32,395 nt of DNA from a virus. The translations under genes and the position numbers were made by a program. Where the stretch lies: positions 1 through 32,395 of IMG/VR virus record IMGVR_UViG_3300030450_001181, one strand, 5' to 3'. The notes under the pieces are model-generated. The model saw only the letters and a program-made list of their open reading frames with translations. It had not been told where the DNA came from and made no database searches. This document shows, one piece after another, positions 829 through 28,765 of the stretch (the stretch's first letter is position 1; each line of letters starts with the position of its first letter).

Positions 829-3800
829 TTACTGATTGAGTTGACTGGAAAATTGACGAGCGGTAGTCCTATTCTGCCCCATATTATCGGTCTGACGATA
901 TTGATCTGGATGAGGGCCTCCTTCTCTAAAGAGTTTATATTGTTCATTGTTGTTTAGTCTTCTCTGTTCAATCAGTAATACTTCCATTCTATATGGGTTG
1001 TTGACGTCTGTTCTAAATTTCTCCTTAGCAGCTTTCTTATAAGCATTAATAACTTCTTCTAGTCTAAGTTTCCTTGTATAGCCATCTTGGACATCCTTTG
1101 AATCTATTGGATGGTTAATGTAGTTTAACTTTCTATATTGTGTATCTTTTGTGATTACCTGGTATAGAGCTTCTGCAAGGTTTAATCCACCAAATCCATC
1201 TAACTTAATTGAATAGATATAAGATTGATATTGCTGGAAGGCAGGGTAACTCAGATCAATTCCCTTACCAAAATCAGTTGGTCTAGGTGGTGCGAAGACA
1301 TTTCCTTTTTGGGAAAGTCTCAGCATCTCTTCCATTAGGATTACATTCTTCGATGTTGAAGGTGGGAATCCAGAATCTGTCTTCTCGCTCTTACCTCCAA
1401 TACCGTATTCACTAACTAATCCTCCAGCCATACTTCTCCAGGTTGCTTCTGTTAGACGGAATAACCAAGGAGCATCTTCTCCAGGCATTTCACCGCTACC
1501 TAAGAATCCAGGATTATAAAGAGGTTCTCCTGTTATCCAGTTAATTCTTGGTGGAAGCTTGTCGGAGAAGCCAGGAGTGCTGTTCTTCAGCTCATCTAAG
1601 AACTGACTTCCAAAGCCAGAGGCTTTAGTAAGGAGATCTGATGCAGCATTACCTGTGAAGTCCTCTTGGCTATTGAAATAAACATCTAAACCGTTTGCAT
1701 CAACTCCTTTCTCTAACCCATTCTCCCAGTCAATAACGATTGGTTCTTGTGTAGTAGGAACAAACTTCTTCCCTGGATCATAAGCTTGTCTTATCTCTCG
1801 CAGTTGAGAGCTGCGTGGAGCGAAGCCGAGAATGAATCGCTGAACGCCTCGTTCAAATTTACTTCTCTCTCCTACTTCTAATTCTCTTCTTCCATATCCA
1901 TTAGGAATGAATTGATCCATAAATCCAATAATTCCTTGGTAATAAGTAGCTGAGAATCTATTTTTCATTACTTGTGCAGCTAGTGATGCTACTAAAGCAA
2001 CACCTGCATCATCTCTTTGTTCTTGACTTAGATCTGCATACAACATCTTGTAATCAGCTAGTCCTCCAAGAAGTGTTGTTGCTGGTTCAAAGGCTCTATA
2101 AGAATGCCATCTTCCATATCTCCATACTCCATTTGAATCCTTCCATCTATGTCTCCAAGAGAGAGGAGGACGTTTTGCATTTTCCCAGGCTTTCCTCATC
2201 CCAGGATCATTTGGCCCAAATCCTGTCCATTCAATAGGAAACTCATCATTAAACATTGCTCCCCCAAGAGTGCCTAGCACGACTGAACCTACAGCAAGTT
2301 CACCTTTCCATTTATTAGAGATGTATCCACTTTCATGTAAAAGATCTCGATAGAAAGTATCAGTTGACAGGTTTAGTATTGGTGTCATCCTTAAAAATTG
2401 TTTTGTGATATCTCCAGGTGTTCTGTTGAATGGTTGAATAAAGCTTGCTACAAAGCCCAATCTGCTTGCTTGTATCTGCCCCCACCATTCAGGAATCTTC
2501 GACCAACCCGCAGTCATAGAAGGAGTTAGTTCTCCCACCTCTGGAACATCCCATAGTGTTTGTCCTTTCTTTAATCCTTTGGGGTCTTCACCTATTCTTG
2601 CTATTCTGTTATACAACCGAAGAGCTTTGTTTGATATTTTTCCATCTCTATAAGCATTTGCAAATTCATCAATAGCAGCTTCATCTACTTCTCCTCTTGA
2701 TCTTGCTAGTTCTGCACCAAAGCCATAAGTTCTTTGTCCTACACGAGCACGAACATCATTAGTGAATGTTAACATTCTTCCTATTTGTATTGCTGTCTCA
2801 TCTTTCATTATTGCGTCTGAAATTGTTTCTCCATTAATAACTGCATCTGATGTATAGAACTTGACTTTTGCCGCAGCCCATCTATCTGCATATTTCCATT
2901 GCTCTTCTAATGGAAGACCTTTTCTTGATGCTTGAGTCAACCCTTCTTCTAATCCAATTGTATGAAGTAGAGAATTACCAACTAAAGATTTTTGCAAAGT
3001 CTCTAATGATTGCATTGCTCTTATATCTATTGTTCCTACTTTCCATGCAATCGTAAGGAATCTACTTATAGGACTATCTTTTAATTCTCTAAGGATTGGG
3101 CGTTGATTTAAGTCGTAGGAAGGATGAGTTTCTTTTAGTTGATAAGCACGATTCTGATTATATCCATCTAGATCAACCATATCTCCAGCCCATGCTCCAA
3201 CACGGCGCTTGGGATCGTATAGAGCCATTCCTGTCTCTGCTGATTTGGCAGCTAATCTCAGTGCTCCTTCTGCATAACGCATGAAATACTGATATTGCTG
3301 CAATGCAAGATTCGCTTTTCTCATATTCCCTGAGCCTGCTTCTATACCTGCGTTAAACAAAGGATCAATAGCTATTCTTGGAAATACAGCGAATTGAAGA
3401 CCCCAGGTTTTTGCTCCACTAAGAAGTTGGTTAACTCTCCAGACAGCTAAAGCTTTTCCTACTCTTTCTACTCTGTCTACTTTCTTAGGTGCTTTCTTGA
3501 TCGGACTTGGGCCATCAATAAATTGCTCAAGGGTTTTCATTCCTGCGGCTCTGTCACTATCAGAAGCAATGAAGGCAAGTTGATGAGCTATAGATTCAGC
3601 TTCTGGAGTCCACTCTCCAGTCTCAACAGCTTGTCTATATTCTTCTGGTAGATTCTGATATAGCTCATCCTTCTGGACTTTGGCATTGAGGTCTTCGACT
3701 ATTCCAGCCTTATCTAATCTGAGACTTCCATTAACAGGGTTAATACCTTTAGCGTTAATAGGAGCTTGTGTTCCTGCTAATAATTGACCTGCTGCTCTAG

Positions 3801-6800
3801 TCCAAGTTCGATATGTCCTTACATATTTAAGAGAAGTCTCTAAAGATTCTTCAAGGCTTTTAGCTGTTGCTGCATAATCAATAGAACCATTCGCTTCTGC
3901 ATTAAGCATCTGCCTTGCATACTTAGCAGTCTCTCTACTTGAAACATCAAGTCCTATTCTTAAAGTTAATAAGTTTCTGACATTCTCTGCATTGTTAGCG
4001 AAGAATGCTGTTGCTCCTTTAACATTTTCATCAGATAAAAAGTCCTCTAAATCTATACCTTCAGCTAAGAAATCATTCTGTAGTTGTTCTACTATCTTTC
4101 TTGTATTTAAGATAGGAATACCTGTATCAATTATCCTGTCTATTTGATGAGAAACAGCATCATAAAGTCTCTCTACATCTGGAGTTGTTTCTGTATAAAC
4201 TTTCTTACCACTAGGAGATCTGATTGCAGTTACATCCTGCCAGATTTCTTCGTCGACAAGATTGATTTCACCTTCATCTACCTTCTTAATATTCTCTAAG
4301 AATTCATCACCTACTCCTCTAACTTCATCAGGAGTTGGGTCTCTAAATCTAGGCTTATCAACAACTCTTTCTCCTCCTCGCATGGTTCTATACAATTCAT
4401 CAACTCTTGGATCTATCGGAGAAGGTCCCTCATGATCGAGGATCTCCATAGAGATTTGTCTCCATAGATCTTCTTCGTATTCAATCTGGCCAGGAGTTGT
4501 CTCTAATGGATATTGTCTAATTTGTTTTGTATTCCTTTGCTTCAAGAAATCATTAAAGATTTTCTCTGTACGAGGGCCACCAAGCTGAGCTTTTAAACTA
4601 ATCCATAAATCTTTAAAGAATATTCCTATCTGTTGTATAACTCTAGTGAATGATCCTTCTGGTGCTAGATCTGCTTTCTTCCAATGCTTAAGAAGAAGTT
4701 GATCTGTTAACATCTCCGCAAAGTATTCATCTATATTGTAATACCTATAGTTTTCTGCCGTAAAAACACCTTTGTAACTATTGGTGGGATCAATTGATAG
4801 TTTAAATTCTTTAAGTATATCCTCTGATTCTTTAAGCCCGGCTTCTCCATCTAGGACAGCCCTATGAAGATTGTTATATCTCTCAACTACAAAAAGATCA
4901 TTCATTATTTTTTCTAATTCTTTCTTTTCAATAGGAGTAAGCCCAGAAAGTGGATATATCTCTGCTTTGTTATTTAGAGCGATAAGTTCTTCTGCTCTTT
5001 TTTGAGTCGTCCATACATCGATTTGATCATATGCTTCTTTTATCTTTGCTCGGTCTGAAGTTAAATCTGCAACCTTTTTTCTTAGTTTTAAAAGATCTTT
5101 GTCAGCTTTTCCTATATAACGAGCTCGTGCTCTGATAAATTCTTTTTTATATGCTTTAAGATCTGCTTCTGGAAGGAATCTCGACAATGTATGCCATAGC
5201 TCATGGATCATAGTTCTTTTGAAATCTCCATCTCTCGTTATATCTGTATTGATTTCAAGTAGACTTCTTCCAAAAGCAAAGCGACCTTCTGGTCGTATTT
5301 TATTAAAGAAGCTAAGAGTTACATCATCAAACATATCTTCACCAATCATATCTATAAATTTTTCAATAGCTTTTACATCTTCGACCTCAAGATCTCTTTG
5401 TACTTCTCGTCTCATTTGTTTCTTTATTTGTTCTACTCCTTTGTGATGTCTCATGGATATTCTTCCTTCTCCTAATCCAGCACCCCTCGGATTATTTCCT
5501 TCTAAACTATCGATAATTTGAGAGATACTTTTTCCTTCAAGAAAGGCTGCTTCTATTTCATCATCTTTAATAATTTTCTGTGTACGTTCATAAATATTTC
5601 TACCTGTGTTTGGATTTATTCCTTTTTTTCTTCTTGTTGTTTTTGTTCTGAAATAAGGAATGTCTCCTTTCTTTAATGCAATTGCAAGTTCTTGAACTCT
5701 AGCTGTGAAGGCTTCTTGAGCTTCTTCAATTTCTTTAACTTGTTGTGGTGTAACAGGATTACCATCTGGATCAACCCAGCCTTTTTCTCCTTTCCATGAA
5801 AAACCGTCTTCAAGCAATCTGTCAGGATCAATCGTAGATTCTGAGAAGGCAGTCTCAGATTCTTCTTTTAGAAGAGCTCCTTCATCTCCAACACGTACAT
5901 TTGGATCATCTAGGATTTGCTTCTCTGCTGTTCCAAGTTCTTCGAGTCTCTTCTTGATTTTATTATTATCTCTAATCCATTTTTTATAAGCCTTGCCTTC
6001 GGCAGTCATCTTTCTTTTTCCATCAACCGTTTCATAGAAACTTTCTGGTTTAGTCGGTTCTGTTCCTAAAGCTTCCTGCTTCTTCAGGAGTTCATTCATC
6101 TCATCATCTGGACTTATTCTTTTTCTTGGGGGGGCTTCTTTTATATCTGAGAATCGTACTGGAACATCTTTAGATCTCTCTGGAAAACCAAAGGCTCTAT
6201 TTACATAATCTTGATCAACTACTTGTAAATCACCCCACTTTGGATGATTACGAACAACAATGTTTTTACCTTCTCTCCTAAGTCTTCCCGCTTTAATTCG
6301 TAGAGCTTGTTGCTTGGCTCTAGCAGCAGTATCTTTTCCAAGAGGAAAATCTCCTAGATCAACAAAATCTTCATCAGGGAATTGTGTTGTTAGAGAAGCT
6401 GACTTAGTTTTGTCATAATGTCTTTGCCATACCCATCCTTCAACGTTACTGTCTTTACTTCCTGCATATACACCTGGCCCATAAGCACCATTTGGGCTAT
6501 GTCTAATACCTGTTTTTTGAATATTCTCTATTGCATCTTTAGTAGTTGCATGAACAAATCTAGGTTGCTCTTGAATTCTTTTACCTAATTGATATCTTAC
6601 TTCTTCCCATTTTTGATCTCTCCATTCTTTAGTTTGATTTGCAAATGATTTATCAAACTGTGCTCTATCAATTCTTGTTTGAAGTCTTGCATCTCTAATG
6701 TTTGGATCTTTTGCATTAGCAGTCTCTATTTTCTTAACTTGTTCTATTGCGTCATAAAATTCTGGACTACCTGGAACTGTTTTAGATAGATTTTCTATAG

Positions 6801-11986: not shown

Positions 11987-14697
11987 ATTCTTCTAGCTCT
12001 TTCTTGTAACCAACCTTCCCATTCAGCTGATTGGAACTTACAAGGCAATGGACTACTACTAACTATTTGAATCGTCGCATCAATATTCCGTGTCATCACT
12101 GGAACCCTGACTGTTTCTTTTGGGATACCAACTTGACCTATTACATTCTGGCCAACTTGAATTCCGTTATAGGGGTAAGTCGAAGTATCTCTGCCAAAGG
12201 GAGTTACTTTTAATTCAAAAGCAGAAGTCTTATCAAAAACAACTGACCATTTCCTTAACTGTAAATAAGGAGAAGCTGATACAGAAATAGAACCACCTTC
12301 ATCTTGTTGTTTTAAATAAGGTGTACTAAATTCATAGGTCATATCATAAGGTTCTCCTATAAAGAAAGCAGAAGTACTAACATCACCATCAACAGTTATA
12401 GTCCCATTGTTAGAAGCATCACCGACTGTCTCTGCTGTAGGGGTAAGGACTTGTCCATGTTTTAATTTTATTAATGCTTTAAATTTATATGTGTTAGTTG
12501 CTGCTTGTTTAGTGAAAGAGACTGCTACATTATCTTGTAATGTTTTGCTGAATAAGTAAGAAGGGAAATCAGTGATTGTAACAGTTGCATTTCCTGTAGT
12601 CTTGCAAGTTGTTGATCCTCCTGTACTTGTAATAACTAATCCTTTTGCATTTACAATTGTGATGACTGCATTAGTTGAAGGTTGAGAAGTTGGGAAGCTA
12701 TTGATATCTGCATAGTTTGTTCCTCCTACTGTCAATGGTCTTCCTACTAATTTAGTAACTCCTGCATTGGCTAATGGATAGGGAAGAGTGATTACTGTTT
12801 GAGCATTTAAACCGCCTGCATTTGTAACACTAAAAGTACAATTGGTTTCTGTTGTTTTCCTATCAAGAAGCACTTCAATCTCTGTTCCTGTATCAACAGT
12901 CTCAGGTCTTAGTGATGCCTTCTCTAAATAAACTCCATCTGCATATTCAACAATAATATAAAGATCACTATCTAAAATTGATGCTGTAAGAATGGACTTA
13001 GCTCCTTTGACTTCCCAGTAAGACCAAGCAGACTGCAATTTAGTTTCATCTGCAAAAAGGAATTTATATATATACAGTCGTGTTGGCTCATCCTTGCTAA
13101 CTAATACAATTGTTTCTTCCGAAACAGATGCTGCTATAGCTACTAAGTTCTTAGGAATATATCTAGGAACTGATGCTGTTACTTCTGCTGAGATAGGAGT
13201 TGAACCTGTTACATCAGGTAGATAGAACTCACGCAGTCCAGTGAAATCTCCTTTGTTAATAGGGAAGAAGACAGTACGACCTACACCTATTGGGTCAATC
13301 AAATCAACTGAATCATATTTTGTCATTGATGTGATCGTTGCAGTCGCAGGTGTAAGTGGAGCACCTAATCCTGAAGCACCTGTATCTAATCTGAATTGAC
13401 CATGAGGACTAAACAAGAGCAAGGTGTTAGCAAATGCCATGCTCGAAGTCAGGAAGTTAATATCAGTACCACCTGTACTTACAAAGATTGGATCACTATC
13501 AATAATTGTTTGTACAGTCTCTCTCCAAAATCTTGTGTAGTCGTCAGCTGCTGATAAGCAGGCATATTCATCAGATAAGAAAACTAATCTATTTCTAAAT
13601 ACGTTTATATTTTTTATCTTCTCTCCAACGAAAGGAGGATTAGGAGCACTGGTTGCATCTCCTGCAATTCTATTTCCCCATGTATGTTTCTGAAAAGTAA
13701 ATGTACCATTGGCATTCCTAATTAAAGTATGAGGCATTGTTGTTGCATCTAACTTGTAAACAATATTGGGTGCGACTGTCTCTCTCCATATTCCTTTACC
13801 GCTAGTTCCTCCATTAGTAGTTTCAAACTTTACATAATAATCATCTGCTTCTGTAGAACTAGACCCGATTATTTTTAATAATTGTCCATTGATTCCTTTC
13901 AGTGGTAATTGCTGTATTGCTTCTACTTCATCTTTAACTCCAACAATAAACATATCAGCAATTGTGTCGCTGACTGCTATCGTGAATGTTCCTCCATCAT
14001 CTTTAACTATCTTGAGTAAGTAATCATCAATAGTTGATGCTGTATATTCTGGGCCTAAAGTACTATCACCATTGATTGCATCTCTCAATCCATCACATAC
14101 AACTTTATTGCTAGGTGCTGTTGAAGATGAACCTTGACCTATAACTGGAGTGGTGTATTCTTTCTTGGTTTCTGCATGGTCACTTGCATTTAATGTTACT
14201 GAGTAGGTTGTATTATATTCAGCTTGTCTAATGAATACAGCTCCAGTATTAGCAGCAAAGGTTGGCGATGTTGCACTGTCCATCGCTACAGTTTTTTCTT
14301 TATTAGTAATAAAAGTATGGTCAGCAATACTTGCTAATCGGAAAGAGTTTGCTGGTTCTGATGTGTTTGCTATATCAAGATATCCTTTTCCATCTGGAAA
14401 GCTGACTGTTTGTTCAACTCCAGTCAAGCTAAATACTTTTAAGTCTCCATCAGTTATATAGATTAAATATTGAACAGCTCCATCACGATCAACAATACTG
14501 CTAAAAGGTCTGGTAGTTCCTGCTGTACCAGTAAACATCCTTGCTTGATGATAGAAAGGAGGCCGCTTTTTTAAACCCTCAACAGAACTAGGAATGCAAT
14601 TGATTACTGTCTCTGCTTGTGACGCAAGTCTTAGTGCAGCTGGTTGTTGGCTAACACCATTAATAAGGTTTGGAATTGACTTGGTTACTAATGGCAT
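11983..14697 (-). CDS. Tail tubular protein B, gp12-like (nozzle)
   Basis: A 904-aa protein, somewhat longer than T7 gp12 (794 aa), that forms the tail nozzle under the gp11 ring. The N-terminus MPLVTKSIPNLINGVSQQPA is the hallmark of the family, followed by LRLASQAETVINCIPSSVEG. The middle has the family's FVGEKIKNINVFRNRLVFLS and sequences like TGGTDINFLTSSMAFANTLL (about residues 400-420). The remainder is beta-rich with Thr/Ser-rich insertions. The start at 14697 lies 2 nt after the gp11 stop, and its own stop overlaps the gp13-like start (ATGA). The extra length is in the Thr/Gly-rich region around residues 600-780, a plausible surface insertion. Confidence 0.93.
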   Translation of the reverse strand: MPLVTKSIPNLINGVSQQPAALRLASQAETVINCIPSSVEGLKKRPPFYHQARMFTGTAGTTRPFSSIVDRDGAVQYLIYITDGDLKVFSLTGVEQTVSFPDGKGYLDIANTSEPANSFRLASIADHTFITNKEKTVAMDSATSPTFAANTGAVFIRQAEYNTTYSVTLNASDHAETKKEYTTPVIGQGSSSTAPSNKVVCDGLRDAINGDSTLGPEYTASTIDDYLLKIVKDDGGTFTIAVSDTIADMFIVGVKDEVEAIQQLPLKGINGQLLKIIGSSSTEADDYYVKFETTNGGTSGKGIWRETVAPNIVYKLDATTMPHTLIRNANGTFTFQKHTWGNRIAGDATSAPNPPFVGEKIKNINVFRNRLVFLSDEYACLSAADDYTRFWRETVQTIIDSDPIFVSTGGTDINFLTSSMAFANTLLLFSPHGQFRLDTGASGLGAPLTPATATITSMTKYDSVDLIDPIGVGRTVFFPINKGDFTGLREFYLPDVTGSTPISAEVTASVPRYIPKNLVAIAASVSEETIVLVSKDEPTRLYIYKFLFADETKLQSAWSYWEVKGAKSILTASILDSDLYIIVEYADGVYLEKASLRPETVDTGTEIEVLLDRKTTETNCTFSVTNAGGLNAQTVITLPYPLANAGVTKLVGRPLTVGGTNYADINSFPTSQPSTNAVITIVNAKGLVITSTGGSTTCKTTGNATVTITDFPSYLFSKTLQDNVAVSFTKQAATNTYKFKALIKLKHGQVLTPTAETVGDASNNGTITVDGDVSTSAFFIGEPYDMTYEFSTPYLKQQDEGGSISVSASPYLQLRKWSVVFDKTSAFELKVTPFGRDTSTYPYNGIQVGQNVIGQVGIPKETVRVPVMTRNIDATIQIVSSSPLPCKFQSAEWEGWLQERARRI

Positions 14698-16321: not shown

Positions 16322-16433
16322 AAAGAATACCTAGAAAGAAAGAAGGTTCCTGACCTCAATTCCTTCCACTCTGGGTATCCCTCGCAAGGGGCCGTTGCTT
16401 CTTGAATAGGTCTAGGTAATTAAATAATAGCTC
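16322..16433 (-). promoter_or_regulatory. Capsid gene leader with inverted repeats
   Basis: The 112 nt between scaffold stop and capsid start hold no gene. TACCTAGA (16328-16335) and TCTAGGTA (16411-16418) are a perfect 8-bp inverted repeat near the two ends. Between them is a small hairpin CCCT-CGCA-AGGG (16379-16390). The leader could be a phage-polymerase promoter with a structured 5' end or an RNA-processing site. I could not identify a promoter consensus, and no clear Shine-Dalgarno precedes the capsid ATG. Confidence 0.45.
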
Positions 16434-20326: not shown

Positions 20327-21930
20327 AGTGCGAATAGGGGTAGTTTTAATCGACCTGTTTGCTGGTCGTAGAGCAGCTTGTCCATAGGGCCAGTGACCCC
20401 ACTAAAGCGATTTTTCAGGAGTCGCAGTTGGAGTTCTGATCTCTCAGCTGGATCTCCCTGTTGGTTTCTTTCGGCGGCAAGGACTAAGTCACTTAACTGG
20501 GCCACAGAATGTGAGCTTCTTAAGTGCGAGAGAGAAACTTGTGTGCCCTCCTCATGTCCTTTACCTTCAGGTCGTCTCAAGTGTGAGACAACTATGAGAC
20601 CAACGCCTGTACTTTCTACTACTTGTCGCAGCTTGGTACAGGTAACGTCGAGTGCTCGCCTCTCATCTAGATCACTGATGCCAGAAATAACTATGGTCAA
20701 GTGATCGAGGATAACGACATCAACTCCCTCAGCTGTAGCTAGATATTGAATCTGTTCAACTAAGCGATCAGGATCTATTGATCCAAAGTGGTCGTATAAA
20801 AAGAGGCGACCAGTTCCAAGTAATCGATCAAAGGCATCCTTAAGCTCTGCATCTTCAGAAAGATTGTCTTCAAAATGTAGAGGTCTTGATAGTTCAACTC
20901 CGATTATTCCTTGCAGTGTTCTTTGAATACTTTCTTCGAGTGCGATGTACCCCACTTTCATTTTATTTCTTAGAAAGTGATGGGCCAGCTCTCGACACAT
21001 GCTTGATTTCCCAGTCCCTGATCCTGCGCAGACTGTCACCATCTCACCCTTGCGATATCCCTTAGTTGCCTCATTTAATTTGGGCCAAGGATATTCACAG
21101 ACTGAGGAGGCCCCTGGTTTTATCAGTGCTTCCCATTGGTCAGCGGCTTGTATGATTGAATCAGGTCTTGCAGGTACGGCTTTCCAAAGCAAGTCCCTAA
21201 GCGCATCCCCCTCTCCTGCGAGGAGCATTTCATTAGCATCTTTTCTTGGTAGTCGACAGATAGCTGCCTTACCAAGAGGTAAGACTTCAAGTGCTTTCTC
21301 GGCAGCAGCCATACCAGGCTCATCCGTATCCAAACAAAGGACAATCCGAACAAAAGTGTTTAACCATTTCTGTACTTCAGGAGTGGATAAATACTTTTTA
21401 ACTGATTGAGCTCCGTTTGGCAGTGACACAACAGGGAACTTGTTGCCTTGTACTTGAGAGACAGACATTGCATCTATCTCTCCTTCAGTAATAACAACGA
21501 AAGTATTACCTTGGTTTGTTTGTCTCCATGTGTGTTGAGAAAAGAGCATCATCTTGCTGGTATCACCTAGCCAAATGAATTTCTTATCTTTAAATCTCAC
21601 ATGTTGAGCACATGGTCTGCCTAAGTGATCGTGATAGTTGGCAACTTGAACAGGTTGGTTGTGATATTCAGCGATGCCATAGGGGAAATGAGTAACTGTT
21701 TCTTCTGTGATGCCACGCTTTTTTAATGCACTTGGTTTGATGAATTTAATTAGTGGTGATACTTGTCTTGGTGGTGCGGTTGGCATTGGTCTTGGTTTTT
21801 TTTCTTTTGATGGTTGGTACTGGTAGTCGCATCCAAAGCAGTGAGCATGTCCATCATCAAAGACGGCGAGGTTATCCTTACTGCCACATTCAGGGCATGG
21901 CTCATGCCTCAGGTATTTACTTTTTTCCAT
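20323..21930 (-). CDS. DNA primase-helicase, gp4-like
   Basis: A 535-aa bifunctional primase-helicase of the T7 gp4 family. A zinc-binding domain comes first (C12, C15, C31, C34). The TOPRIM primase core follows, with EGEIDA at 149-154 and CLDTDEPG (D201, D203). The RecA-like helicase has Walker A SGTGKSS (K308) and Walker B VVILDHL (D409), with SHLRRPEGKGHEEG and SLSHLRSSHSVAQLSDLVL as later helicase motifs. It synthesises primers and unwinds DNA at the fork. T7 gp4 ends in an acidic tail that contacts the T7 DNA polymerase. Here the end is GRLKLPLFAL, not acidic, which fits a phage without its own polymerase. Confidence 0.96.
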   Translation of the reverse strand: MEKSKYLRHEPCPECGSKDNLAVFDDGHAHCFGCDYQYQPSKEKKPRPMPTAPPRQVSPLIKFIKPSALKKRGITEETVTHFPYGIAEYHNQPVQVANYHDHLGRPCAQHVRFKDKKFIWLGDTSKMMLFSQHTWRQTNQGNTFVVITEGEIDAMSVSQVQGNKFPVVSLPNGAQSVKKYLSTPEVQKWLNTFVRIVLCLDTDEPGMAAAEKALEVLPLGKAAICRLPRKDANEMLLAGEGDALRDLLWKAVPARPDSIIQAADQWEALIKPGASSVCEYPWPKLNEATKGYRKGEMVTVCAGSGTGKSSMCRELAHHFLRNKMKVGYIALEESIQRTLQGIIGVELSRPLHFEDNLSEDAELKDAFDRLLGTGRLFLYDHFGSIDPDRLVEQIQYLATAEGVDVVILDHLTIVISGISDLDERRALDVTCTKLRQVVESTGVGLIVVSHLRRPEGKGHEEGTQVSLSHLRSSHSVAQLSDLVLAAERNQQGDPAERSELQLRLLKNRFSGVTGPMDKLLYDQQTGRLKLPLFAL

Positions 21931-27285: not shown

Positions 27286-27453
27286 TCACTGTTTAACTAT
27301 GTTGATAGGCTTTGACTTATCAAGTTTTAAATCTTCTAAGTCTTTCTTTGTTATTACTTCCTTCATATTGGAAGCAACATCATCAACAGAATTAATATCT
27401 TTTAGATCTACTTCTTTAGAAGAATCTCCAAAAGAAAAAACTACTGAAGGCAT
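27286..27453 (-). CDS. Small early protein of unknown function, 55 aa
   Basis: A 55-aa, Asp/Lys-rich protein: MPSVVFSFGDSSKEVDLKDI, then NSVDDVASNMKEVITKKDLE and DLKLDKSKPINIVKQ. It is preceded by the shared leader AACCCACCACAAAGGAG with a Shine-Dalgarno 8 nt before the ATG at 27453, which is the main support. It is flanked on both sides by structured RNA elements and so is expressed as a separate unit in the early block. Function unknown. Confidence 0.75.
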   Translation of the reverse strand: MPSVVFSFGDSSKEVDLKDINSVDDVASNMKEVITKKDLEDLKLDKSKPINIVKQ

Positions 27454-27460
27454 AATTAAA

Positions 27461-27495
27461 CTCCTTTGTGGTGGGTTCCCTCAGTTAAGAGGGAA
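27461..27495 (-). promoter_or_regulatory. Leader motif with 7-bp hairpin
   Basis: Minus strand: hairpin TTCCCTC-TTAACT-GAGGGAA (27476-27495, 7-bp stem, 6-nt loop), then AACCCACCACAAAGGAG (27461-27477), which carries the Shine-Dalgarno of the 55-aa gene. The arrangement hairpin-motif-Shine-Dalgarno repeats at 28005-28038. Confidence 0.75.
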
Positions 27496-27544
27496 TAGCT
27501 AGGTCAGGGTTTGCACCTGACCCCCCGCTTTTACGGATTAGCTA
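27496..27544 (-). promoter_or_regulatory. tRNA-like RNA fold, copy 2 (no anticodon arm)
   Basis: Read on the minus strand. The 5' strand TAGCTA (27544-27539) pairs with TAGCTA at the 3' end (27501-27496), an acceptor-like 6-bp stem. A small D-like hairpin follows (CCG-TAAAAG-CGG, extendable by a U-G pair). Then a 7-bp T-like arm GGTCAGG / CCTGACC has the 7-nt loop TGCAAAC. The T-like stem lies directly against the acceptor stem. The stop codon TAG of the upstream 151-aa gene is inside the 5' strand. It is not a normal tRNA because there is no anticodon arm. Its partner is at 28041-28086. Confidence 0.65.
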
Positions 27545-27997
27545 AAGCAGAACTTTATTAGTTCTTACTTCTTCTGGGTGCTTGTCTGGAATTACTTCTT
27601 GGGTGGGTGCTTTTGGAATCATCCATTCCATATCGTAATTCGCTTTATAACAAGTCCAGTTTTCTAGGTTTGGATTCCATAAGTAGGAATATTCAATCTG
27701 TACCGTGTCATACATCAGGAATTCCCTTAGGTCTTCATGTTCAGCTGATGGACATTCCTCCCCTCTCATCTTGAAAGTTCTAATGATTGGTTGATCTAAC
27801 TCTTTCATGTTCCAATCTGTATTGGATCTGATACAGCTAATGTCTCCCCCTTCCATTAGATCTCTTACTTTCAGAGAGTTTGAAAAATGCCTCTTCAGTA
27901 CAACACCAAGCCATTGTGGATATCCATCCGAATGGTGATAAACAGATTCAATAGATCCGTCTTGGTTAAGGATTCCAATCCTTGAACGTGTAGACAT
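27542..27997 (-). CDS. Phage early protein of a widespread uncharacterised family, 151 aa
   Basis: A 151-aa protein beginning MSTRSRIGILNQDGSIESVY, then HHSDGYPQWLG, the recognisable opening of an uncharacterised phage protein family (MSTRSxIG... DGYP). The middle is polar with DLMEGGDISCIRSNTDWNMK. It ends EYSYLWNPNLENWTCYKANY, DMEWMIP and a flexible tail. No function is known for this family to my knowledge. Its leader is AACCCACCACAAGGAG, and its 3' end runs into the tRNA-like element copy 2. Confidence 0.85.
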   Translation of the reverse strand: MSTRSRIGILNQDGSIESVYHHSDGYPQWLGVVLKRHFSNSLKVRDLMEGGDISCIRSNTDWNMKELDQPIIRTFKMRGEECPSAEHEDLREFLMYDTVQIEYSYLWNPNLENWTCYKANYDMEWMIPKAPTQEVIPDKHPEEVRTNKVLL

Positions 27998-28004
27998 TTG
28001 ATGT

Positions 28005-28038
28005 CTCCTTGTGGTGGGTTGATCCCTCTTTCGAGGGA
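28005..28038 (-). promoter_or_regulatory. Leader motif with GAAA-tetraloop hairpin
   Basis: Minus strand: TCCCTC-GAAA-GAGGGA (28023-28038), a 6-bp stem capped by a GNRA tetraloop, then AACCCACCACAAGGAG (28005-28020) with the Shine-Dalgarno of the 151-aa gene 7 nt before its ATG. It lies directly downstream of the tRNA-like fold copy 1. Confidence 0.75.
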
Positions 28039-28040
28039 AG

Positions 28041-28086
28041 AGCTAAGGGCGGAATTGAACCGCCCTCTCGGCCTTACCGATTAGCT
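28041..28086 (-). promoter_or_regulatory. tRNA-like RNA fold, copy 1 (no anticodon arm)
   Basis: Read on the minus strand. Acceptor-like AGCTAA (28086-28081) pairs with TTAGCT (28046-28041). D-like hairpin TCGG-TAAGG-CCGA (28080-28068) has GG in the loop. T-like arm GGGCGG-TTCAATT-CCGCCC (28065-28047) has a 7-nt loop identical to a standard tRNA T-loop at T54, T55, C56, A57, A58. Acceptor and T stems are contiguous, 12 bp in all, the length of a tRNA acceptor minihelix. The upstream gene's last three codons and TAA overlap its 5' strand. No anticodon arm exists. Confidence 0.75.
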
Positions 28087-28301
28087 AACAAGGCTGGAAC
28101 TTTCTTTAATTCCTCCTCGTATTCGATTTCTCCCTCGTCGTCATCCATCTCCATCATTGTGATGGCTTGCTTGGCAAAATCCAATAGGCTTTCTTCGTTC
28201 TCTACGATGATTCGTAGGTCATCAACGAAGCCCTCTGGGTCGTGCTTGTAAGCCTCATAGACGAGAGCAAGTAAGACGGTGGAAGATACCTTCTTGTTCA
28301 T
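28074..28301 (-). CDS. Acidic early protein, 75 aa
   Basis: A 75-aa, strongly acidic protein with 19 Asp/Glu against 8 Lys/Arg, including MEMDDDEGEIEYEEELKK near residues 50-67. It starts MNKKVSSTVLLALVYEAYKH and is largely helical. It is the first sizeable gene of the early block, the place where T7 carries gp0.3 (Ocr), an acidic DNA-mimic that blocks restriction. There is no sequence evidence of relatedness, so an anti-defence role is only a guess. Its ATG directly follows ACCCACCACC, and its stop lies inside the tRNA-like fold. Confidence 0.75.
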   Translation of the reverse strand: MNKKVSSTVLLALVYEAYKHDPEGFVDDLRIIVENEESLLDFAKQAITMMEMDDDEGEIEYEEELKKVPALLANR

Positions 28302-28390
28302 GGTGGTGGGTTCCTATTCGGTTGTAGGTCGTAAGACCCTTGAGGTTCTGCCGAGATTGCCTCGGCATATCCATCATAGTCCCTAGACAT
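28298..28390 (-). CDS. Possible 30-aa leader protein at the start of the early block
   Basis: The frame MSRDYDGYAEAISAEPQGSY, then DLQPNRNPPP, ends TGA overlapping the ATG of the acidic gene (ATGA), the junction used by most genes of this phage. The final Pro-Pro-Pro comes from the ACCCACCACC motif, exactly as in the gene ending at 26417. Within it, TGCCGAG-GCAAT-CTCGGCA forms a 7-bp hairpin. There is no Shine-Dalgarno before its ATG at 28390. It may be a coding leader or a non-coding structured leader. Confidence 0.4.
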   Translation of the reverse strand: MSRDYDGYAEAISAEPQGSYDLQPNRNPPP

Positions 28391-28765
28391 TCTTTTGACA
28401 ATGGGCGGCTAAAAAGAAACACTCAGATTAACTGGCAGGACTGGGAAAATTCATTGACATTCAGTGATACCACCCCCCTCCCCCTCTCTGATCTTTCTGC
28501 GAAGGGGCACGGGGGGTAGCAGCTCTTCCTACATCCTGCGTAAGCCCCTCAGATTTTTGCAATAAAAAAGTAAGATCGATCTTAGATAGGGGGCGGATCT
28601 GTTTCTTCATATATGGACAGCCAGTGAGGGACTGTTATCTTTCGTGTGTTGATGCTCTAGGAATGTTCCCCATCACCCGATAGAGTGTCAAAGAAGGGAG
28701 TTCTCCTGTGGTGGGTGGGACTCCCGTACTATTTGTGATTAATATGAGGAAAATATCAATGAATT
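28391..28765. promoter_or_regulatory. Divergent intergenic region between early and terminase blocks
   Basis: These 375 nt separate leftward early genes from rightward terminase genes and should hold the early promoters, perhaps also the genome-end or packaging region. Structures seen: a long GC hairpin in which ACCCCCC (28472-28478) pairs with GGGGGGT (28511-28517) and CCCC (28480-28483) with GGGG (28504-28507); a perfect 14-bp palindrome TAAGATCGATCTTA (28571-28584); and a 6-bp hairpin (28696-28725). TTGACA occurs at 28395 and 28454 on the plus strand without a convincing -10 box. I could not place a transcription start. Confidence 0.5.
28696..28725 (-). promoter_or_regulatory. Leader-motif copy enclosed in a hairpin
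   Basis: On the minus strand GGGAGT and ACTCCC form a 6-bp stem whose 18-nt loop contains CCCACCACAGGAG, the same motif and Shine-Dalgarno as in the early leaders. No ATG follows at normal spacing. A TTG 11 nt downstream would give only 18 codons. It may be a remnant leader or a deliberately masked one. Confidence 0.5.

Follow-up and report, generated by a model that had tools for sequence, protein, structure and literature searches.

A tRNA-elbow RNA family at gene junctions of cyanopodoviruses and its probable role in mRNA punctuation

Introduction

Transfer RNAs (tRNAs) and tRNA-like folds that lie between mRNAs or end them, and in doing so define processing sites, are known as the t-elements of plant mitochondria and as mitochondrial tRNA punctuation (PMC8003010). 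The subject of this report is an RNA element encoded at positions 28,041–28,086, minus strand, of a viral DNA of 32,395 nucleotides (nt; IMG/VR record IMGVR_UViG_3300030450_001181, the whole of which is hereafter the window). The record is that of an uncultured T7-like podovirus; among named phages, the MPP-C Prochlorococcus phages P-SCSP1 come closest to it by RNA polymerase (64%). By analogy, the element most likely works like the organellar ones, as a junction tRNA-like fold that is interchangeable with tRNAs, here tRNA-Gly at the site ahead of the capsid gene. It differs from t-elements in belonging to double-stranded DNA phages, lacking an anticodon arm, overlapping a stop codon and having a covarying hairpin downstream, and in that its cleavage is predicted from the anatomy of the junction.

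Other described systems share part of this character. The MALAT1 mascRNA/menRNA family (RF01684) also represents a short tRNA-like fold carried within a long transcript; mascRNA is eukaryotic and retains a small anticodon-like arm. The pre-capsid copy of phage Syn5 scored 23.4 bits against RF01684 (E 0.34), below the gathering cutoff of 42.5, and the window gave no match, so the element is not a member of that family. RNA signals that would separate messages are likewise found at the early-gene junctions of phage T7, where they take the form of long irregular hairpins cleaved by RNase III. A site of that type was rejected here, as the element is a short two-armed fold with loop–loop coupling. 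T7 has no match to the covariance model of the new family (R1, below). Among plant viruses, the tRNA-like structure of Turnip yellow mosaic virus (TYMV) stands at the 3' end of the genome. Mimicry of the elbow between the D and T loops is common to it and the cyanophage element, with pseudoknotting elsewhere in the TYMV fold (PMC4810234), whereas the latter is internal, repeated and carried in the mRNA of a DNA phage.

An RNA family with a tRNA elbow

Read on the minus strand, the element is composed of AGCUAA, a D-like hairpin, a T arm and UUAGCU. The acceptor strands, AGCTAA at 28,086–28,081 and TTAGCT at 28,046–28,041, pair over 6 bp; the D-like hairpin UCGG-UAAGG-CCGA (28,068–28,080) ends its loop in a GG equivalent to tRNA positions 18 and 19; and the T arm GGGCGG-UUCAAUU-CCGCCC (28,047–28,065) adds a 6-bp stem, which gives a coaxial stack of 12 bp. 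The minimum free energy is -21 kcal/mol (z -3.4), and none of 200 dinucleotide shuffles was equally stable. The original prediction, which was made from the letters of the window, had described just such a minus-strand minihelix without an anticodon arm, and folding, shuffles and a structural descriptor bear it out. Because the anticodon arm is absent the element is not a tRNA (RF00005), and no ARAGORN tRNA call or Rfam family call was obtained anywhere in the window; the tRNA elbow, with contacts 18-55 and 19-56 and a UUCRANY-type T loop, is present. A T-loop match at 13,196 (minus strand) was dismissed, since it lies in coding sequence and has no such fold.

Relatives were collected through the neighbouring gene for a 151-aa protein, RNA polymerase and DNA patterns. 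Applied to 624 kb of sequence from the window and its relatives, the descriptor returned 40 matches, duplicates included, against 0–3 in each of five Markov shuffles. The covariance model R1 was built from 29 copies and then used for a wider search, which yielded 68 distinct copies in cyanopodoviruses. The window element, TLS1, matches it with 57.5 bits (E 3.6e-15) as a member of the training set, and the second copy that had been mentioned, TLS2, was located at 27,496–27,544 (minus strand; 73.3 bits, E 2.4e-20, likewise a training-set member). Across the 68 copies 90.4% of helix cells pair, double changes occur in 16 of 17 pairs, and 261 compensatory cells were counted against 83 in shuffles; when the partner is shifted by one column, pairing falls to 57% or less. 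The 68-copy alignment is fitted to the model, and a sequence-only alignment of the founding set gives an agreeing result. The conserved pairing and compensatory changes proposed as a test in related phages were therefore found.

The strongest tertiary signal couples the second-last base of the D-like loop to the second base of the T loop, equivalent to tRNA residues 18 and 55. It was found that 36 copies carry A18/G55 (AG...UGC) and 30 carry G18/U55 (GG...UUC), that no copy mixes the two (p 1.8e-19; p 3.7e-5 when the copies are collapsed into 17 sequence clusters), and that this is the sole non-helix pair among the top mutual-information (MIp) values. A concerted switch was seen between two elements that are 94% alike. 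The GG first noticed in the D-like loop therefore marks a position that, across the family, changes together with the T loop, next to a 19-56 pair that is almost invariantly G-C. In tRNA, residues 18-55 next to 19-56 make the contacts that form the elbow (PMC4810234), and the A18/G55 variant represents a naturally occurring substitute for the G18-U55 contact. The combined length of acceptor and T stem is 11–13 bp in 64 of the 68 copies, in line with the 12-bp stack of tRNA. At the level of predicted structure, these comparisons show the top half of a tRNA with its elbow, in which acceptor and T arm stack coaxially over about 12 bp and the 18-55 and 19-56 contacts dock the D-like hairpin onto the T loop. 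On this comparative evidence the window element belongs to a genuine RNA family, conserved in cyanopodoviruses and marked by the tRNA elbow.

The family occupies early-gene junctions and the site directly before the major capsid gene, the latter in other phages and outside what the original prediction had foreseen. Elements of the two kinds of site are united by the covariance model and the common 18/55 rule, not by their flanks. Where whole contigs of close relatives were searched, confident R1 matches are confined to the early region, with up to four copies at consecutive junctions (contigs L160 and L208). These different copies and their compensatory changes argue against an attP tRNA fragment, an idea for which host-tRNA identity was not directly searched. 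In L208 (5302–6199, minus strand) an element stands at each of four consecutive early junctions, and the last (6159–6199) has no D stem and keeps the GG and the UUC T loop. Cultured phages with the element include P-SSP7 (601–649 and 20631–20679), P-SSP2, 9515-10a, S-CBP2, S-CBP42, S-TIP37, Syn5 and others, the weaker scores having been checked by eye. The control phages spanned T7, a pelagiphage, a roseophage and two cyanomyoviruses, plus LUZ100: R1 had no matches in T7, HTVC031P, CRP-113, P-SSM2 or MED4-213, and LUZ100 matched at chance level only (E 0.25).

The family appears to have been undescribed until now and to be absent from catalogues. Rfam, at gathering and permissive thresholds, gave no genuine family for the element, and sub-threshold matches to PrrB_RsmZ, freshwater-2 and cyano_tmRNA were dismissed. 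Near-sequence BLAST in a phage collection returned chance matches only, and a specific pattern search of bacterial and archaeal genome contigs returned none. No description of such elements in cyanophages was found in open-access full texts; as subscription journals lay outside this search, the novelty is provisional.

The site ahead of the major capsid gene

In many cyanopodoviruses the element precedes the major capsid gene and is followed by a conserved leader, UUGGC...GGAUACC.... In phage NATL1A-7 this slot is occupied by a full tRNA-Gly(TCC) at 3479–3549 (called by ARAGORN, scored at 70.5 bits by RF00005 and annotated in GenBank), followed by the same leader with the register unchanged. 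The tRNA-Gly(UCC) genes of this type thus share site, register and downstream leader with the pre-capsid element, and unlike it they are complete, with an anticodon, and presumably also capable of serving translation. A scan for the arrangement returned at least 120 viral contigs. Among the matches listed, whose counts are not population frequencies because the scan pattern demanded a UUC T arm, the major capsid protein gene (mcp) lies downstream at 119 of 123 sites; a full tRNA was found at 30 of 105 distinct sites, 29 of them Gly-TCC (28 of 100 under a slightly different extraction); several sites keep acceptor, anticodon arm and T arm without a D stem; and most are elbow-only. Since tRNA and tRNA-like element occur in the same slot, the element appears to stand in for a tRNA, and this swap is the strongest evidence, drawn from comparison of genomes, that being read as a tRNA matters. 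Seven contigs (L364, L369, L371, L381, L384, L406 and L444) carry a pre-capsid tRNA-Gly-like form with acceptor, anticodon and T arms intact and no D stem, which ARAGORN misses.

Further features surround this slot. In L335, L336, L337, L340, L341, L342 and L345 (respectively S-CBP1, S-CBP4, S-SRP01, 9515-10a, S-B28, SS120-1 and DSL-LC07) a conserved internal-loop hairpin, ...CACCUCAGAGUCGGACC..., replaces the element; its outer stem of about 9 bp is variable in sequence, DSL-LC07 has one base different, Rfam has no match for it, and it could be another processing signal. The leader of the capsid message, exemplified by P-SSP7 20679–20760 (L349) and seen in other pre-capsid regions, reads UUGGC..GCC-hairpin-GGAUACC..GCCGUC..GACGGUGGGAUAGACCAC and has no Rfam entry. 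The window carries the leader core GGCCCC..GAGGGAUACC at 16,374–16,393 (minus strand), with the element absent. A glutamine-II riboswitch (RF01704) lies closely upstream of the slot in L305 (1392–1445, P-SSP7 about 20522–20575), L308, L335, L336, L342, L344 and L351. In P-SSP7 a small open reading frame (ORF) after the riboswitch (MKVTFVYRGVAYTRVIG, then a stop codon) terminates within the tRNA-like element.

Junction anatomy and proposed function

Of the 68 copies, 53 carry the stop codon of the upstream ORF at position 1, 5 or 12 of the element. These positions represent three different reading frames, and in 25 of the 68 all three frames contain a stop within the first 24 nt, where mononucleotide shuffles give 1.6 such copies and Markov shuffles 5.3. 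In the window, the ORF at 28,301–28,074 ends with a UAA at 28,076–28,074 inside the D-like loop of TLS1, as had been stated of the upstream gene's final codons. A second hairpin, which formed no part of the original prediction, begins 0–2 nt past the acceptor in 63 of the 68 copies, compared with 14% of random sites; in the window it is UCCCUC-GAAA-GAGGGA at 28,023–28,038, 2 nt past the acceptor 3' end. Its arms are chiefly UCCCUC/GAGGGA and covary between lineages (GCCACUC/GAGUGGC, ACCUCAC/GUGAGGU, GACUCUC/GAGAGUC, GCAUCAC/GUGAUGC and others), and the start of the next gene is typically some 40 nt beyond. This hairpin is not an intrinsic terminator, because no U tract follows it: neither window element has a terminator call, and a mean of 1.5 T was counted in the 8 nt after the hairpin.

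With this arrangement in mind, the element is judged to be, with fair probability, a minimal tRNA mimic that punctuates polycistronic phage mRNA through host tRNA-processing enzymes, the likeliest event being a cut on its 3' side of the RNase Z type. The tRNA elbow serves as a recognition feature for RNase P, RNase Z and CCA enzymes, and pre-tRNAs that lack CCA are cut by RNase Z after position 73 (PMC4810234); cleavage of engineered tRNA-like elements by RNase P and tRNase Z is known (PMC4946936), and cyanobacteria encode both RNase P and RNase Z (PMC10989914). As the stop codon lies in the element and the hairpin belongs to the next message, the sole cut that would spare both messages is one between them, after position 73. 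We infer that host enzymes would recognise the element, which ends the upstream gene, and that RNase Z, measuring from the elbow, would cut between it and the hairpin, in the window between 28,040 and 28,039, leaving U28039 as the predicted 5' end of the downstream message. The upstream message would retain its stop codon and gain a compact tRNA-like 3' end, possibly CCA-tailed, and the downstream one would begin with the hairpin as a 5' shield. Where the slot holds a tRNA, RNase P could cut the 5' side as well. In phages that have very few internal promoters, such processing would serve to tune the levels of messages; Syn5 has just two phage promoters (PMC3950665), and promoters of the Syn5 type were absent or weak in the window and other phages.

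Several observations weigh against this reading. Replacement by a tRNA was seen at the pre-capsid site alone, the ARAGORN calls made at early junctions in two relatives (L018 and L037) having proved spurious, spanning coding sequence; some phages hold a different hairpin in the pre-capsid slot; the MPP-C isolate P-SCSP1u has no R1 match, which makes the element dispensable in some lineages; no CCA is encoded; and the 1-72 pair shows no G-C preference across copies, which weakens recognition by RNase P.

This last point bears also on an unlikely alternative, in which RNase P cuts the 5' end of the element, the non-stop upstream message is cleared by trans-translation to shut off early genes, and the downstream message starts with the element. 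The acceptor-T stack and the elbow are RNase P determinants (PMC4810234), and full tRNAs do replace the element before the capsid gene. However, with stops at positions 1–12 most upstream genes would become non-stop, G1-C72 is not conserved, and the hairpin at fixed spacing after the element is left unexplained. The original prediction had placed an RNase P-type cut at the acceptor 5' end, which is not supported here as the productive step: most tRNA-like versions would lose the upstream stop codon (position 1, 5 or 12) through that cut, and the anatomy favours the 3' side. Its broader idea of a tRNA enzyme gained strong indirect support from the pre-capsid swap; its idea of an element separating early mRNAs holds for the placement at junctions and not for the restriction to early genes.

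It is also improbable that no tRNA enzyme acts, and that the fold, stabilised by its elbow, bars the way of exonucleases or RNase E or protects a 3' end from them, with ordinary cleavage nearby. The fold is compact and very stable, a second hairpin accompanies it, and P-SSP7 infection up-regulates host rne (PMC10989914), although any stable hairpin would then suffice, and the strict 18-55 elbow, the 12-bp ruler and the swap with tRNA-Gly would go unaccounted for. Very improbable as the primary explanation is a recombination linker, a conserved multi-frame stop where early genes are exchanged and the RNA fold is secondary. The window and contig L003 carry different genes after the same element, and three-frame stops exceed shuffles, while the strong divergence of sequence with pairing and tertiary coupling kept is the opposite of selection for DNA homology; a linker role may hold alongside punctuation. 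Finally, a tRNA mimic to which a synthetase, EF-Tu or a phage protein binds so as to control the upstream or downstream gene would fit the overlap with stop codons, the position before start sites and the glutamine-II riboswitch nearby upstream in several isolates, yet it is very doubtful given the absent anticodon arm, the many unrelated neighbour genes and the lack of conserved identity elements besides the fold.

The early region of the window

All features of this region lie on the minus strand and are given in order of transcription. A candidate sigma-70 early promoter, TTGTCA-17-TATGAT (28,373–28,401), stands ahead of the first early ORF as a consensus match alone, without enrichment over shuffles. 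The first early ORF (75 aa, 28,074–28,301) runs into TLS1, and the second (151 aa, 27,542–27,997) is flanked by both elements. TLS2, of the UAAAAG/UGCAAAC type (A18/G55), is unlike TLS1 in sequence and sits at the next early-gene junction, its bases 1–3 (UAG) being the stop codon of the 151-aa ORF. The adjacent hairpin UUCCCUC-UUAACU-GAGGGA follows (27,477–27,495), and then the third early ORF (55 aa, 27,286–27,453).

An identical copy of TLS1 is present in contigs L003 and L018. Compared with window positions 27,542–28,086, these near-identical phages (RNA polymerase 99% identical) have different early genes after this element, and for that reason the early genes resemble exchangeable cassettes set between elements.

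Significance

For the origin of the family a tentative scenario can be put forward as quite possible, in which a phage tRNA-Gly turned into dispersed punctuation in cyanopodoviruses, losing its D stem and then its anticodon arm, to give 46-nt elbow-only elements that host tRNA enzymes would cut, freeing stable early and capsid messages. If true, some phage tRNA genes would be retained for mRNA processing rather than translation.

The analysis adds an apparently undescribed structured-RNA family, with recurrent placement before the capsid gene, to phages that are among the best studied in the sea, such as P-SSP7 and Syn5. It provides a concrete explanation of how separate levels could be set for different messages in T7-like cyanophages that have almost no internal promoters, and it makes testable whether some phage tRNA genes serve translation or RNA-processing signalling.
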